IMG/VR virus record: IMGVR_UViG_3300009163_000139
Span: 1-28,079 of that record
Strand: one strand, 5' to 3'
Length of the DNA stretch: 28,079 bases
Source: a virus
In this document: piece after piece, positions 5,221 to 16,465 of the stretch
Position numbering within the stretch: position 1 is the stretch's first letter
Layout: every line of letters starts with the position of its first letter
Position numbers and translations under genes: made by a program
The notes under the pieces: model-generated
What the model was told of the DNA's origin: nothing
Databases searched by the model: none
What the model saw: the letters and a program-made list of their open reading frames with translations, nothing else

Positions 5221-6564
5221 TTAACCCTTCTTACGTTTTACAACACCATCTTGTTCGTAGTAACTACCGGGTGGAAGCTTGTCGTACTCTGCTTTGCTAG
5301 TAGGTTTAGCAGGATTGTCTTGAGTATATTTGTTACTAGTAGCAGCAGCCGATGGTTTAGCTTCTCCTGGTAACATATCAAGCATAGAAGTAACTTTTTT
5401 AGCTGGAGGTGGTGCTGGCTCAGCTTTTTCTGGACTAGGAACTTCTTTCTTATCAGGAGGTGGTAGTAGATCAAGCTCTTGCTTAATAAAATCCATGTAC
5501 TCAGCTTTACCGTCATAGTCTGGAGCAGATCTAGCAACAGCAAGTCTACGTTCAATTTGTTTTCTTTGTTTAGCAACTAGCTTATCTACTGCTGTACGAT
5601 ATGCTCTTTCACTAGCTTCTGTTGGTATATCGCTATCCCAAAGAAATCCTTTTTTACTGGCTATACGAGCTTCATCAGCTTTATCAACTTCTTTTTGAAG
5701 AGGTATGTTTTCCTTATCATCGAGTCTTTGTTGCTTCTCATCAAAGGTTGTTAGGTTTTTAAAGTTTGTTGCTTCTTGTTTATCATTAGCACTGCCATCA
5801 CCACGACCCATGCTTCTACGTTTAGTTGCTTGATCTGCTGTATATACAACTGCCTCTTTACGTATTACAGCTATTTCTTTTTGTACTTGATCGTGGTACG
5901 TTTTAATCTCATCAGTAAGTTGTTGTGCTGGGCCTTTAAATAGTTCTTTAATAATTGCTTTCTTTTGAGCAGGAGTAGTATTTTTCCAGTTTTCTTCTCC
6001 TACTTTAGAAGCAATTAGTTTCCTACTATTTTCAGGAAGACCATTAAGAACACTTTCAATTTGATCATCTGGAAGTTTACCAACAATAGCGTTAACTTCA
6101 GCTAGTGTTTCATAATCTACTTTATTTTGAGTTGCTCTAGTTTGAGCATCTTTAGCATTAAAAGTATTTACTTCTTTTAACATATCTGCGGCAGCAGCAG
6201 GATCACTATCAAACCAAGCAGCAGCAATAGCTGTACCTTTTTCACTAAAGCTTTTAGTAGACCAGCCTTCTTCTGCCATTAACGCTTTAACAGCTTTATT
6301 CTTGTCATCAGTTAGTTTGATGTTAGCCCCAAGAACTATATTAGCAAACTTATTTTTTTCTAAAGTAGCAGCATCTTGTTCAGCTTTAAGTGCAGCTTCT
6401 TGTGGAGCATAGGCAGCTTTAAGACGATCTTGTTGTAGCTTAAGCTGTGTATCTTCAGCGACAGCAGAAGCTTGTTGCTCCACATAGGGAGCAGCAGCCA
6501 TGTTTTGTTGTAACTGAAGAGCAGCTTTACTACCTTCAGCTAGATCTGACATTAGATAAGCCAT
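5221..6564 (-). CDS. Internal virion / ejection protein, coiled-coil
   Basis: 447 residues, start ATG 6564 preceded by AAGGATAAATT. The N-terminal 70 residues are Ala/Gln-rich (SKAALQLQQNMAAAPYVEQQ), the centre (about 70-330) is highly charged and helical, and residues about 365-405 form a Pro/Lys-rich linker (PPPDKKEVPSPEKAEPAPPP). The C-terminus ends in a short module, SKAEYDKLPPGSYYEQDGVV followed by basic residues, which recurs at the C-termini of other aquatic-phage virion proteins and may be a targeting or anchoring tail. It sits between a small Gly/Ala-rich internal protein and the 1243-residue ejection protein, three bases from the latter, a layout like the three-gene ejection sets of P22 and T7. 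Family assignment is by context and composition, not by a recognised domain. Confidence 0.82.
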   Translation of the reverse strand: MAYLMSDLAEGSKAALQLQQNMAAAPYVEQQASAVAEDTQLKLQQDRLKAAYAPQEAALKAEQDAATLEKNKFANIVLGANIKLTDDKNKAVKALMAEEGWSTKSFSEKGTAIAAAWFDSDPAAAADMLKEVNTFNAKDAQTRATQNKVDYETLAEVNAIVGKLPDDQIESVLNGLPENSRKLIASKVGEENWKNTTPAQKKAIIKELFKGPAQQLTDEIKTYHDQVQKEIAVIRKEAVVYTADQATKRRSMGRGDGSANDKQEATNFKNLTTFDEKQQRLDDKENIPLQKEVDKADEARIASKKGFLWDSDIPTEASERAYRTAVDKLVAKQRKQIERRLAVARSAPDYDGKAEYMDFIKQELDLLPPPDKKEVPSPEKAEPAPPPAKKVTSMLDMLPGEAKPSAAATSNKYTQDNPAKPTSKAEYDKLPPGSYYEQDGVVKRKKG

Positions 6565-6573
6565 AATTTATCC

Positions 6574-7185
6574 TTATGTAACATAATATTCACTGTAAGG
6601 ATTTGAGGCAGAAACTGGTGGCCCTACTGAGTTAGCGTCTGAATACATATAGTTGTATCCTGGGCCTCCTGGAGTACTTCCACTAGAAGCAAACCCTCTA
6701 AGACCTTGTGCAATACCACCCATACCCTGCATAAATGCTTGGTCAGATTGATTTTGTGCATTAAGTCCCAAAGCAGCAGCTTGAGCAGGATTATTAACAG
6801 CACCACTACCTTGAGCAAGTCGGTTCATATAGTCAGTCATAAAGCCATAGTAGCCTTGTTGCCCAACCTTTTGAAGTTGTAGTTGCTCTGCCCCTGAGTA
6901 CAAGTTTCCAGTAGCAGCAGCAGCCCTTTGAGAAGCTTGCATAGCTGGTTGTAATACACCAGTATTAAACTGTGTGTACCCTGGCATAGTTTCAATGTTA
7001 GGATTAGCTCCAGGCTGTAAAGCACCAGCATACATTTCTCCCAGTTGACCACGGTATCCTGAAAAAGGATCAGCAGCTTTTTGGGCTTGAGCACCAGCAC
7101 TACTGCTACTGCTAGTTAAAGCTTTAATACCACCAGCAATTCCAACAACAGAAGCAAGTGTTCCTAATGTAATTCCAGCAGACAT
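6574..7185 (-). CDS. Small internal virion / ejection protein, Gly/Ala/Gln-rich
   Basis: 203 residues, start ATG 7185 with AAGGGACTAACAA upstream; the gene overlaps the end of the cupin-SET gene by 22 bases. An N-terminal hydrophobic helix (about 5-24, ITLGTLASVVGIAGGIKAL) is followed by a Ser-rich linker, then by Gln/Ala/Gly-rich sequence with YSGAEQLQLQKVGQQGYYGF (about 97-116) and a disordered Gly/Pro/Ser tail ending in YYVT. The shape resembles T7 gp14-like internal virion proteins and their analogues: a short membrane-active N-terminus and a helical body. It is the first of three consecutive internal-protein candidates. No enzymatic motif is seen. Confidence 0.8.
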   Translation of the reverse strand: MSAGITLGTLASVVGIAGGIKALTSSSSSAGAQAQKAADPFSGYRGQLGEMYAGALQPGANPNIETMPGYTQFNTGVLQPAMQASQRAAAATGNLYSGAEQLQLQKVGQQGYYGFMTDYMNRLAQGSGAVNNPAQAAALGLNAQNQSDQAFMQGMGGIAQGLRGFASSGSTPGGPGYNYMYSDANSVGPPVSASNPYSEYYVT

Positions 7186-8066
7186 TTGTTAGTCCCTTTC
7201 CAAAGATTGTTTAATTGCATGACTTGTCTATAGTCTAAAGTTATTTCTTCACCTAGATCACCACCAGCCATACCACCTATGTCCCGAAATGCTACTAAGA
7301 ACATATCACCTAGATCATTTTTAAAAACTATTGCATTGGGAGTCTTAGAGTGATTAACAAGATACCCAGCAGGAGTCCTATAACCACCTAATCTCATAGG
7401 TGCAATAATGCTATGTTGTTTAATCACAGCAGTAGAAAACATTCCTTTACCTTGGATTGGGGAGTTACCAGAACAAATGCTGTAACTTCCATCTGGAAGA
7501 GGAATACAATCTTCTCTATGTTTAGATGCTAACTCGATGTCTTCAAGAGTCCAACCAGACTCCTTAACCATGCTTAAGAAGTCTTGGCGATCTTCTTCAT
7601 GTTTAGAGCTATCTATAACTAGTTTGTCTTGCTGATGTTGCTTAAGAATATCAGGAGACTTAAATAACACAGACTCTAGGTATTCAACATCTGTGCTACT
7701 AGTAACATAGATATTTTGCCACACAACATCCTCTAGTGTGTAACCAATTTTGCTACCAGCTTTAGCCACAAACATATGGGGAGCCGTAAGTGTTTGTATA
7801 GAACCATCTCCATCAATAACATTGATGCTTCCTTTAAGAAGTACATTCATATGTTCAGAGAGATGTTCTTGACCAACAATTAAAGTATCCTTTGGATAAT
7901 GAGCTTCTCTGATATACAACCCACCACCAAATCTATGGATGATTGAATTGGGAGTTTGCTCATGTCCCAACATTGCTTTAGCTAAAGCTAGTTTACTATC
8001 TGTATTACGAAGATCAAAATCTGGTTTGGTTGCAACAGAGTTAATAGAATCTAGAAGTTGTTCCAC
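7164..8066 (-). CDS. Fused cupin - SET-domain protein in the virion operon
   Basis: 300 residues, starting at GTG 8066 (read as Met-Glu-Gln-Leu-Leu) with GGGG six bases upstream and two bases after the nozzle stop. Residues about 44-125 look like a single cupin barrel: GQEHLSEHMNVLLKG (65-79) carries candidate metal ligands His68 and His72 and the conserved closing Gly, and a second strand set runs through PHMFVAKAG. Residues about 196-285 carry SET-domain hallmarks in the right order: G206-K-G-M-F, N238-H-S-K-T-P-N244 (the SAM-binding NHSxxPN motif, lacking the usual Cys) and G272-E-E-I-T-L-D-Y279 with the expected catalytic Tyr. SET proteins are protein-lysine methyltransferases. The substrate is unknown; capsid, tail, ejection or the Lys-rich micro-proteins are all possible. 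I recall related cupin and SET segments in aquatic phages but no characterised example. Confidence 0.85.
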   Translation of the reverse strand: MEQLLDSINSVATKPDFDLRNTDSKLALAKAMLGHEQTPNSIIHRFGGGLYIREAHYPKDTLIVGQEHLSEHMNVLLKGSINVIDGDGSIQTLTAPHMFVAKAGSKIGYTLEDVVWQNIYVTSSTDVEYLESVLFKSPDILKQHQQDKLVIDSSKHEEDRQDFLSMVKESGWTLEDIELASKHREDCIPLPDGSYSICSGNSPIQGKGMFSTAVIKQHSIIAPMRLGGYRTPAGYLVNHSKTPNAIVFKNDLGDMFLVAFRDIGGMAGGDLGEEITLDYRQVMQLNNLWKGTNKCLLELH

Positions 8067-8068
8067 AA

Positions 8069-9964
8069 TTAACCCCTATAACTTCCACCACCAACACTTT
8101 GTTCTTGATCCATCTCACCTATTCTAAAATCTATTTCAGCAGCATCAAGACGAAGAGGTACATTACTAGTACAAAGAAACTCCCAAGCTCTACGACGATC
8201 TGCACCACCTAGATATATCTGTGACCTAGAAGCATTAAGATTAACAGATCTATAGCTAGACCAAGAGTTATAGTCATTTCCTGTGTGGCGTACTTGCATA
8301 GTACCTTCCACTTTGTCACCAATAATTTCTAATCTACCATAGAATTTACGTTTAGTAATTCCATTGTCGTTAAGATCTGTAACTGTTCTACAGTATATAG
8401 ATTGTCCATTATCCTGGTATGTGTCTACATCAAAATAATATATATTTGCTGTGCCATCATCTAACACATATGGAATAGTATTTACTTCAGCATAAAAGCT
8501 AGGACGAAAATAAGATTCTACATAACTACCTGCGCTAGGTTGTCCAGTAGAAGCTATTGCATATTGTGTCCATTGATACCACATCTTCTCATTTATATCA
8601 AATACTAAGGTTTGCCTAGTATTGTAAAGAGTTAATATATAAAGAGTATGTCCACCAAACTTATAGCAGTAAGCAGTTACCTTACTCATATCATCTGCTT
8701 CTAAATGTTTGTCTATGTTGTCTGTAGAAATTTTAACAGCAGCAACACCATCCATAAGATATACACAACGACCATTAGTTTTACTAGTACCTACCCAAAG
8801 AACAGTACCATCAGCAGCTACTATGCTATCCCCGTTGGCACAACCTATCTCAGATGTATAACTTTGTGCTACAGTCAAAGGAGAACCTACAGCAGATCCA
8901 GTGTCGTAGTAAAGCTGCATACTAGTCTTACCAAAAGCTATTAGGTAATTAAGATGCTTAATAATGCCTACTAAAGTATCTGTAGTTTGTTCAAAGGTAA
9001 GATAATTTAAAGGATTCCAAGATGTTGGATCACCAACATTAGAGTTGTATATACGATTACTAGTTGTACCAATAAACACATAGTTATCTAGAAATGCTGC
9101 TCCAGATACATATGGCCCAGTAGGGAATGCAGAAAGAATGGGAGTTAGTACAGCACTAGAACCATTATCTGTAAAGGTAATAGTCCCAGATACAGCACCT
9201 GTGTTTGCAATACTTAAACTAATAGTAGTTCCATTAATATTTGTAACTGTAGCGTTAGGAGCTACACCTGTACCAGAAACGTACATACCAGTATAAATAC
9301 CTGTAGCACTTGATACAACAATAGTAAACAAAGCTATAGTACCTGTAGCAGTAGGAGTTACAGTAGCAGGAGTATTAACAGTACAAGTGGGTGCAGAAGA
9401 TAAGCCACTACCATTGTTAGTTATTGTTACGGTAGAAATACTTCCATTAACAACAGTAGCAGTAGCAACAACTCCACCACCAGAAAAACTTAGGGTAATC
9501 CCCGAACTATAGTTAATACCTTCGTTGTCAATACTAATGCTCACAACCTTGTCATTAGTAATAGCAGTAAAAGCAGAGCTAGACTTCTTATATAAGTATG
9601 CGTTAACCTTGTTGTGTATGAACAAATACTCATCTAAAAAAGTTCTAACAAAGTAACTTTGACTAGTTGAGACAGAAGTTGTACCTACAGTAGTAACTGC
9701 ATATCCAGTTGGATTAATTTGATACACCGTGTTATTAATAACAGAAATAATCTTGTTGTTAAAACTAGCTAGTCCTTGACTAAGTGTACTAGCAGGAGGA
9801 GTAACAGGTGTTACTTGCTTTACAAAAACAAGCCCAGGTCTTTTAACAAACTCTCTTTTTTGATTCCTAGTTTCAAACACACAATTAGAAGAATAGGAAT
9901 CTTTACTGAAAGTGCCATCTCGACTTTCAATAGGTTGGGTAAGAGGAATGCGTTCTGTAGCCAT
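8069..9964 (-). CDS. Tail nozzle / packaged-DNA stabilisation protein (P22 gp10-like)
   Basis: 631 residues, start ATG 9964. The protein begins with a strand-rich segment (RDGTFSKDSYSSNCVFE...KRPGL) and has the typical core GDPTSWNPLNYLTFEQTTDT then LVGIIKHLNYLIAFGKTSMQ (about 311-350), followed by YYDTGSAVGSPL, which I recognise from the stabilisation/nozzle proteins of short-tailed phages. These close the portal channel and carry receptor-binding proteins. It is longer than P22 gp10 (472 residues), largely because a beta-rich, Thr/Ser/Gly-rich insert occupies about 137-275 where relatives have a short loop. It follows the adaptor gene by two bases, matching the gp4-gp10 order of P22. Confidence 0.88.
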   Translation of the reverse strand: MATERIPLTQPIESRDGTFSKDSYSSNCVFETRNQKREFVKRPGLVFVKQVTPVTPPASTLSQGLASFNNKIISVINNTVYQINPTGYAVTTVGTTSVSTSQSYFVRTFLDEYLFIHNKVNAYLYKKSSSAFTAITNDKVVSISIDNEGINYSSGITLSFSGGGVVATATVVNGSISTVTITNNGSGLSSAPTCTVNTPATVTPTATGTIALFTIVVSSATGIYTGMYVSGTGVAPNATVTNINGTTISLSIANTGAVSGTITFTDNGSSAVLTPILSAFPTGPYVSGAAFLDNYVFIGTTSNRIYNSNVGDPTSWNPLNYLTFEQTTDTLVGIIKHLNYLIAFGKTSMQLYYDTGSAVGSPLTVAQSYTSEIGCANGDSIVAADGTVLWVGTSKTNGRCVYLMDGVAAVKISTDNIDKHLEADDMSKVTAYCYKFGGHTLYILTLYNTRQTLVFDINEKMWYQWTQYAIASTGQPSAGSYVESYFRPSFYAEVNTIPYVLDDGTANIYYFDVDTYQDNGQSIYCRTVTDLNDNGITKRKFYGRLEIIGDKVEGTMQVRHTGNDYNSWSSYRSVNLNASRSQIYLGGADRRRAWEFLCTSNVPLRLDAAEIDFRIGEMDQEQSVGGGSYRG

Positions 9965-14821: not shown

Positions 14822-16465
14822 TTAAATACTAAATGTTACTTCCCAGCCAAAAGACATACCGCTTGCGCCAGGATCGGCTCCGCAGCCTATAACAATATTG
14901 GTTGCATTAACAGAAACTACAAATGGGCCTTGCACATTGTTTGTTGTCGCTCCAGCACCAGTGCCAAGCGCATCAACCAAAATCAACCTTATGCCGCTAG
15001 TTGGCGGTGTAACAGCAAGGCCGTGTGCAACAGTTACGCGATTGCTACCACTTGGAATGGTGGCTGGATAACCACGATTTTCAGTTTTAAAGCCTTGGTT
15101 GTTATAGAGATAAACATCTAGCGTGTTTACGTAAGTAACGCCAGTAGTGCAACTAACAAACCAATTATCAATAATGTTTACCCTAGGATTTGACGCATTG
15201 GTAAGGCAACTGATGGCTGTTACTAAATTAGTAAACTGGTTGTTACTTATGTCAACAAGCGTTGCGCCGTTATTTATTTGAACGCCTATGCCAGTAGCAG
15301 TTGATGAATAACTATAAATGTTATCTGAAACAATTGTGGATTGCGTTCCGCTACCAACAAGCACTATTGCGGTCAGTCCATAAGCGCCACCAACAACGCC
15401 GCGCATATTGTTACTTGAAATGTTTGTATTTGTACAACCATTGTTTAGAATTACACAGTATTGAGCTGCGTCAACATTCCAACTATTGTCTGTAATGTTG
15501 GTGTTTGTACAACCGTTTACAACAACACCCTGCATTGCAATGCCATACACGTTAATTTTATTGTTAGAAATTATTGCGTTATTTGTTCCAACAAGATTTA
15601 CTGCTGCTGTTCCGTTATACCCGCCGCTTAAATTGTTGCCTATGATAATTGGCGATCCAGTCGAATAGACACCAGTTCCACCTAGTAAAGTGGCAAACTC
15701 AAACCAATTGCCAATAATTCGCGTTGTTTGCGCTTCGTCATAAACGCAATACCCGCTGGCATTAGGAGAAAAATCGCAGTTTTGAATCCAGCATCCGTTA
15801 GGAAGTTCACCAGAAATTTCATTTAAATAAATACAAGACTCATCTGCATCTGTAATGCGACAAGAAGTGATTTGGCACTCAAACGAATATCGTTGAATTT
15901 CAAAGCAACGCAAAACACCAGGGGAGCCATACACTCTACAATGTTCAGCCGTAAAACCCCATACTTCATTAACCGTTACCAGACGAACAGCCGCACCGTT
16001 GCCTTTTACTGTCAAATTGCTAATGCCAGCACCCGTGTATTCCACGACTGATGCGTCTTGAAACAGCAATGGGCTTACGTTATCAACGGCAGAAATAATT
16101 GTTTCGCCAGCGCCATCACCGTATAGCCAAGTACCAGATGGGCAAATGATTTGCGATGTAACTTTATATGTGCCTTTTGGCATATATATTTTTTTACCCG
16201 CTGAAGCTGTTACAGCCGCCTGAATAGCAGCAGTGTCATCAGTCGTTCCGTCACCCACAGCACCAAAGTCTTTAACGCTTACATATTGACGCAACTTAGC
16301 TTGCACCGTAGTTGCTACAGCACTAGTGCCAGCGGGTGTATATCCAACATTAGCAGCACCTGTAGTTCCCGTAATACTAGGAACAGTTGTGTAGACAGTA
16401 GTGTTTACATCATTGAGCCAAGGGGACTCAATAACAGTTCCACTAGTAAAAACAGTTGTAGTCAT
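14822..16465 (-). CDS. Tailspike, pectate-lyase superfamily, with WLNDVN anchor (547 aa)
   Basis: 547 residues, start ATG 16465 with AAGGATACCT. Residues 1-26 (TTTVFTSGTVIESPWLNDVN, then TTVYT) form the virion-anchor motif also present in the 95-residue stub at 11152. Residues about 65-105 contain the hallmark SVKDFGAVGDGTTDDTAAIQ followed by KKIYMPKGTYKVTSQI, the N-terminal cap of the pectate lyase 3 type beta-helix used by many tailspikes. The helix (about 110-450) has repeating Asn-rich coils (IIGNNLSGGYNGTAAVNLVG, NTNITDNSWNVDAAQYCVIL). The C-terminus is a small beta domain (SGIRLILVDALGTGAGATTN) with the end SFGWEVTFSI. Probable receptor-binding depolymerase. The base use differs from the capsid genes. 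Confidence 0.88.
   Translation of the reverse strand: MTTTVFTSGTVIESPWLNDVNTTVYTTVPSITGTTGAANVGYTPAGTSAVATTVQAKLRQYVSVKDFGAVGDGTTDDTAAIQAAVTASAGKKIYMPKGTYKVTSQIICPSGTWLYGDGAGETIISAVDNVSPLLFQDASVVEYTGAGISNLTVKGNGAAVRLVTVNEVWGFTAEHCRVYGSPGVLRCFEIQRYSFECQITSCRITDADESCIYLNEISGELPNGCWIQNCDFSPNASGYCVYDEAQTTRIIGNWFEFATLLGGTGVYSTGSPIIIGNNLSGGYNGTAAVNLVGTNNAIISNNKINVYGIAMQGVVVNGCTNTNITDNSWNVDAAQYCVILNNGCTNTNISSNNMRGVVGGAYGLTAIVLVGSGTQSTIVSDNIYSYSSTATGIGVQINNGATLVDISNNQFTNLVTAISCLTNASNPRVNIIDNWFVSCTTGVTYVNTLDVYLYNNQGFKTENRGYPATIPSGSNRVTVAHGLAVTPPTSGIRLILVDALGTGAGATTNNVQGPFVVSVNATNIVIGCGADPGASGMSFGWEVTFSI

Follow-up and report, generated by a model that had tools for sequence, protein, structure and literature searches.

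Phage T7 gp13 (PF11090, a probable scaffold according to Pfam) and P22 gp14 (DUF2824, head morphogenesis) are both encoded between nozzle or tail genes and the first ejection genes. SET domains such as those of MLL1/KMT2A and chlorella virus vSET carry their substrate in a peptide cleft and lysine channel, the lining of which is formed by the SET-I region and motif II; the Cys of the NHSC motif is a zinc ligand in some eukaryotic SET enzymes only. A GNAT protein beside the internal virion genes of Cobavirus pc40 has been equated with T7 gp13 (PMC6775973), and provides a modifying-enzyme fold at an equivalent locus, although that fold is an acetyltransferase and not a SET domain. Our literature search for phage SET or cupin virion proteins returned no relevant paper, and none on a cupin-SET protein. 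Here, we report a cupin-SET protein encoded at the position of T7 gene 13 and P22 gene 14, directly before the first ejection gene.

The window (the whole 28,079-nucleotide stretch analyzed, from IMG/VR record IMGVR_UViG_3300009163_000139) carries the gene at positions 7164..8066 (300 aa, GTG start); all features of this locus lie on the minus strand. As an earlier note had proposed, the open reading frame encodes a fusion of the two domains, with the motifs in the sequence and both folds in the predicted model. It is homologous to phrog_34170 (E value, 2.3e-67 over residues 27-284), a whole-length match and hence the same protein family, which carries no assigned function. The placement between nozzle and ejection genes also stands: upstream is a P22 gp10-like/Hc3 homologue for head closure or nozzle (8069..9964; phrog_578, 9.5e-38), and downstream is a gene for a gp7-like DNA-ejection protein (6574..7185; phrog_598, a weak match, E value 0.0042), which the cupin-SET gene overlaps, as noted earlier, by a measured 22 bp (7164..7185). 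The following gene (5221..6564) is taken as a second, gp20-like ejection gene from its position, length, and composition; a family match was sought for it and none was found. A Pfam scan of the cupin-SET protein for PF11090 and DUF2824 found neither. Judged from the operon, the gene is probably expressed late. Elsewhere in the window, a tail-spike-like gene (14822-16465; phrog_18522 and others) lies between the capsid and nozzle modules.

The cupin barrel spans residues about 37-123 (7698..7958) and was assigned by fold match and by homology to phrog_24280 and phrog_12032, both named tail fiber adhesin/short tail fiber (E values, 1e-24 and 1.9e-23). It is a single barrel, matching the single-domain cupins HP0902 and PpnP (VIA Z up to 11.1 over 85 residues), as first proposed, with a core somewhat different from the limits of 44-125 given then. 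Of the two His residues named earlier, His72 is kept in 109/116 fused proteins, whereas His68 (75/116) is not a conserved ligand. The candidate metal positions 66/68/72/106, equated with the presumed metal ligands of TM1459 by extending a weak match without gaps, read Q-H-H-K or H-Q-H-K in most fused proteins. His120 is present in only 8/116 fused cupins versus 51/60 cupin-only proteins: fused proteins mostly have Tyr or Phe at 120 and often Gln at 68, whereas most cupin-only homologues keep both His68 and His120. The loss of His120 fits a shift of function to the SET domain, on three independent pairs and not significantly; a link between cupin His loss and SET gain had the expected direction in about 2/3 independent pairs, too few to decide (sign test, p 0.5). 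A helical linker (residues 127-182; 7521..7688) follows the barrel, as assigned by DSSP of the model (pLDDT mostly >90).

The SET domain occupies residues 190-281 (7224..7499) and was assigned by structure match to MLL1 (7u5v) and vSET (3kma). By itself, the window sequence scored slightly below the curated Pfam cutoff for SET (21.1 bits against 22.4; E value, 4e-4), and Pfam SET matched 33/37 relatives (best, 1e-7). A profile of the SET part searched against the PDB matched MLL1 (1.5e-6) and vSET (6.5e-5). An AlphaFold2 model of the full-length protein, built from 35 window-related sequences, had a pLDDT of 91.8 and a pTM of 0.87, and its residues 190-280 aligned to MLL1 with a Z score of 9.8. 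Because the cupin dominates a full-length PDB search, the SET part was also folded alone (pLDDT, 89.4); this model matched MLL1 7u5v with a Z score of 13.4 (rmsd, 1.6 Å; 84 residues; 29% identity) and vSET 3kma with a Z score of 11.8. The SET core, including the C-terminal pseudoknot region, is present in the prediction, and the MLL1 superposition runs through motif IV, so the outcome that the earlier note had named as refuting, a predicted structure with no SET pseudoknot, did not occur. With both folds in the model and more than 100 homologues, a chance motif match is ruled out.

The three motifs recognized at the outset occur in the expected order: GKGMF (206-210; 7437..7451), NHSKTPN (238-244; 7335..7355), and GEEITLDY (272-279; 7230..7253), the last ending in the predicted catalytic Tyr279. 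Among 113 distinct cupin-SET sequences, Gly206 and Gly208 of motif I, Asn238, and Tyr279 are invariant where readable, and His239 has one exception. The claim that the S-adenosylmethionine (SAM)-site Asn and His and the final Tyr are kept thus holds across the family (109/109, 108/109, and 109/109 readable rows), as do the Pro (106/109) and final Asn (107/109) of motif III and E274 (109/109). These core residues stay conserved even where identity has dropped to about 35%. Lys does stand at the position of the NHSC Cys, as the earlier note had remarked, but it is ordinary here (86/113), and bacterial SET domains have Ala, Arg, or Glu there. The protein is under purifying selection (dN/dS, 0.07-0.17 for the whole protein and 0.03-0.23 for the SET part).

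The earlier reading missed what the phage SET domain has lost. In place of the YxG of motif II, the family has [AG]-P-[AM]-R (P223 in 106/113), and SET-I is almost gone, with 10 residues between the aligned blocks from motif I to motif III versus 44 in MLL1 (34 shorter). The canonical lysine channel and peptide cleft are therefore absent as such. If the protein is an enzyme, it must grip its substrate in another way, for which the cupin, the helical linker (127-182), and the substrate complex itself are possible candidates.

The carriers are a group of aquatic short-tailed bacteriophages. A scan of viral contigs gave 80 close loci, a SET-profile scan gave at least 326 relatives, and tblastn against 50,697 phage records found few with the family (Rhodoferax P26218, Pseudoalteromonas PH1, zth2-2, and Manatee Spring contigs). 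One Manatee Spring record already carries a structure-based annotation as "pbcV-1 histone H3-lys 27 methyltransferase"; the SET resemblance had therefore been noticed automatically, without a function. An assembly chimera is ruled out, since many contigs carry the fusion independently of one another, as do the sequenced phages Rhodoferax P26218 and Pseudoalteromonas PH1. At two loci (L097 and L099), the protein is SET only. In a cupin tree of 107 rows, the best topology has five changes of fusion state, of which at least three fall on supported branches; the PH1 SET falls beside main-clade SETs with weak support in the SET tree, and the PH1 cupin clusters with the cupin-only BA3 protein. From these repeated changes and the PH1 discordance, SET seems to be a mobile module that may have been gained, lost, or exchanged. 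In a Paraburkholderia ferrariae contig (L101:7042-8525), the cupin and the SET domain are two adjacent open reading frames. A short SET-like frame in the T4-like cyanophage P-RSM6 (L219:3058-3357) lies directly beside gp25-like and baseplate-wedge genes.

The neighborhood is conserved on one side. One gp7-like ejection family lies directly downstream of cupin-SET at 106/115 loci, and the pair overlaps or is ≤10 nt apart in 93/95 measurable relatives; the upstream neighbor is gp10-like at 75/123 loci and otherwise variable. In phages of Vibrio, Thalassomonas, Shewanella, Dickeya, Sphaerotilus, and Variovorax, which include P22-like and T7-like types, this place is taken by cupin-only homologues, adjoining an ejection or internal-virion gene on its upstream side; Alteromonas phage H4/4 is an exception. 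A family of ~111 aa (MAVTVKVLVPAKT...TTQYTA...IIDKFTATN; L300:2157-2492 and similar) is frequently found as an insertion immediately upstream of the ejection gene or the cupin-SET gene.

Tentatively, and at a little under even confidence, we favor the reading that cupin-SET is a late morphogenetic protein methyltransferase with the cupin as its docking domain. The predicted folds, the active-site residues, selection, and synteny support it, and the kept core catalytic residues suggest that these phages methylate a protein while the particle is built. The protein would be made in the same operon as the first ejection protein, probably by coupled translation. Its cupin barrel would have been inherited from the cupin-only family that occupies the locus in many podophages and would most likely dock on the assembling ejection or portal apparatus. 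The SET domain would then act as an S-adenosylmethionine-dependent protein (lysine) methyltransferase whose substrate belongs to the particle or to the pathway that assembles it. By position, cupin-SET would resemble T7 gp13 and P22 gp14, which are morphogenetic proteins produced immediately ahead of the ejection proteins; its catalytic part would be a methyltransferase.

The main rival, which we consider doubtful yet a serious contender, is a structural or scaffolding morphogenesis factor whose SET fold is kept as a module for binding SAM or a peptide, with no methyl transfer. It would account for the loss of motif II and SET-I, it agrees with the cupin-only homologues that serve in most relatives without SET, and Pfam calls T7 gp13 a probable scaffold; what it leaves unexplained is a final Tyr, known mainly for a catalytic role, kept in every readable row together with the SAM-site Asn and, with the one exception, His.

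The target bears on a second rival. No column of the adjacent gp7-like ejection protein holds a conserved lysine (highest, 9%), so that protein is ruled out as a conserved-lysine substrate, and under the methyltransferase reading the target may instead be the portal, a larger ejection protein or some other protein of the particle, or a protein of the host. The second ejection gene could be aligned in 31/88 loci, all of them close relatives, and its several Lys columns are therefore uninformative. A methyltransferase directed at a host protein, either produced late or entering the cell along with the ejection proteins, would suit both this missing lysine and the linkage to ejection genes. We nevertheless think it improbable, given that the linkage is to particle genes, that cupin-only proteins substitute at the same place, and that no delivery signal was identified. 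A receptor-binding short tail fiber or adhesin with SET as an appended fiber domain, as the names of phrog_24280, phrog_12032, and GenBank entries would have it, is highly improbable, since fiber features are absent, the cupin is a single barrel, the nearest neighbor is nearly always an ejection gene (in T7-like phages too), and conservation is strong, unlike that of receptor-binding tips.

What else occupies this place was surveyed by collecting the open reading frames upstream of ejection genes, seeded with the Vibrio phage VvAW1 ejection protein and with a profile of its relatives (41 and 69 distinct upstream frames, with few contigs common to both). Among the occupants were 56 cupins without SET and 4 cupin-SET proteins (2 per survey, with one contig in both), proportions that are biased because the seeds were ejection proteins of cupin-bearing phages. 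Pfam GNAT acetyltransferases lie before ejection genes at L249, L251, L281, L283, L284, L321, L325, L354, and L363 (best, 9.8e-12), and a DUF6445 protein does so at L262. Directly before podophage ejection genes, there are also Asp/Asn beta-hydroxylase-like proteins (L264:1953-2492, L280:1947-2525, and L287:1960-2490), possibly a second protein-modifying activity at this locus. A radical-SAM protein with an N-terminal zinc ribbon (TrsS/Tes-like N terminus) stands directly before an ejection-like gene (L260:1761-2789). One gene further upstream, a control of 55 scanned frames held mostly tail or fiber proteins, with 5 Asp/Asn hydroxylases, 6 Cupin_2 proteins, and 1 GNAT; since enzymes also occur there, the enzyme-rich zone is a short interval and not a strict slot. 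An exchangeable, enzyme-rich interval upstream of the ejection genes is a pattern absent from the earlier note. It could be read as a dedicated, exchangeable locus for post-translational modification in podophages, in which GNAT, Asp/Asn hydroxylase, radical-SAM, cupin, and cupin-SET proteins interchange, each modifying the ejection machinery or its partners for packaging, unfolding, or refolding, with cupin-SET as the methylating version; we regard this broader proposal as doubtful.

For the two classical proteins at this position, a GNAT nature was sought by hhalign profile comparison of P22 gp14 and T7 gp13, which gave nothing, and T7 gp13 matched spermine acetyltransferases weakly (E value, 0.4). 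One protein (L277:1937-2413) bridges the P22 gp14 family (phrog_651, 2e-11) and a phage acetyltransferase family (phrog_1249, 0.0016); its matches hint that P22 gp14 may be GNAT-like.

Cupin and SET are each known as domains; within the searches made, their combination, the reduced SET, and its genomic role are new. The literature searched contained no description of a phage-encoded SET enzyme that methylates virion proteins. If cupin-SET is catalytic, phage assembly or ejection would have a dedicated protein methyltransferase, and a SET enzyme working without SET-I and motif II would be informative on the evolution of the fold. Compared with MLL1/KMT2A and the vSET of PBCV-1, the phage protein shares the SET core fold (rmsd, 1.6-1.9 Å) and the GxG, NHSxxPN, and GEExxxDY motifs, but it has no YxG motif II and no post-SET, its SET-I is reduced from 44 to 10 residues, a cupin is fused to it, and its gene lies inside a phage morphogenesis operon. 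The cupins of the PHA00672 superfamily (phrog_24280 and phrog_12032) are homologous to its N-terminal domain and share the locus before the ejection gene, but they are without SET, and most have His68 and His120. T7 gp13 and P22 gp14 are unrelated in sequence to cupin or SET and hold the same position; synteny gives the testable idea that these long-known, poorly understood proteins may covalently modify the ejection apparatus or guide such a modification.
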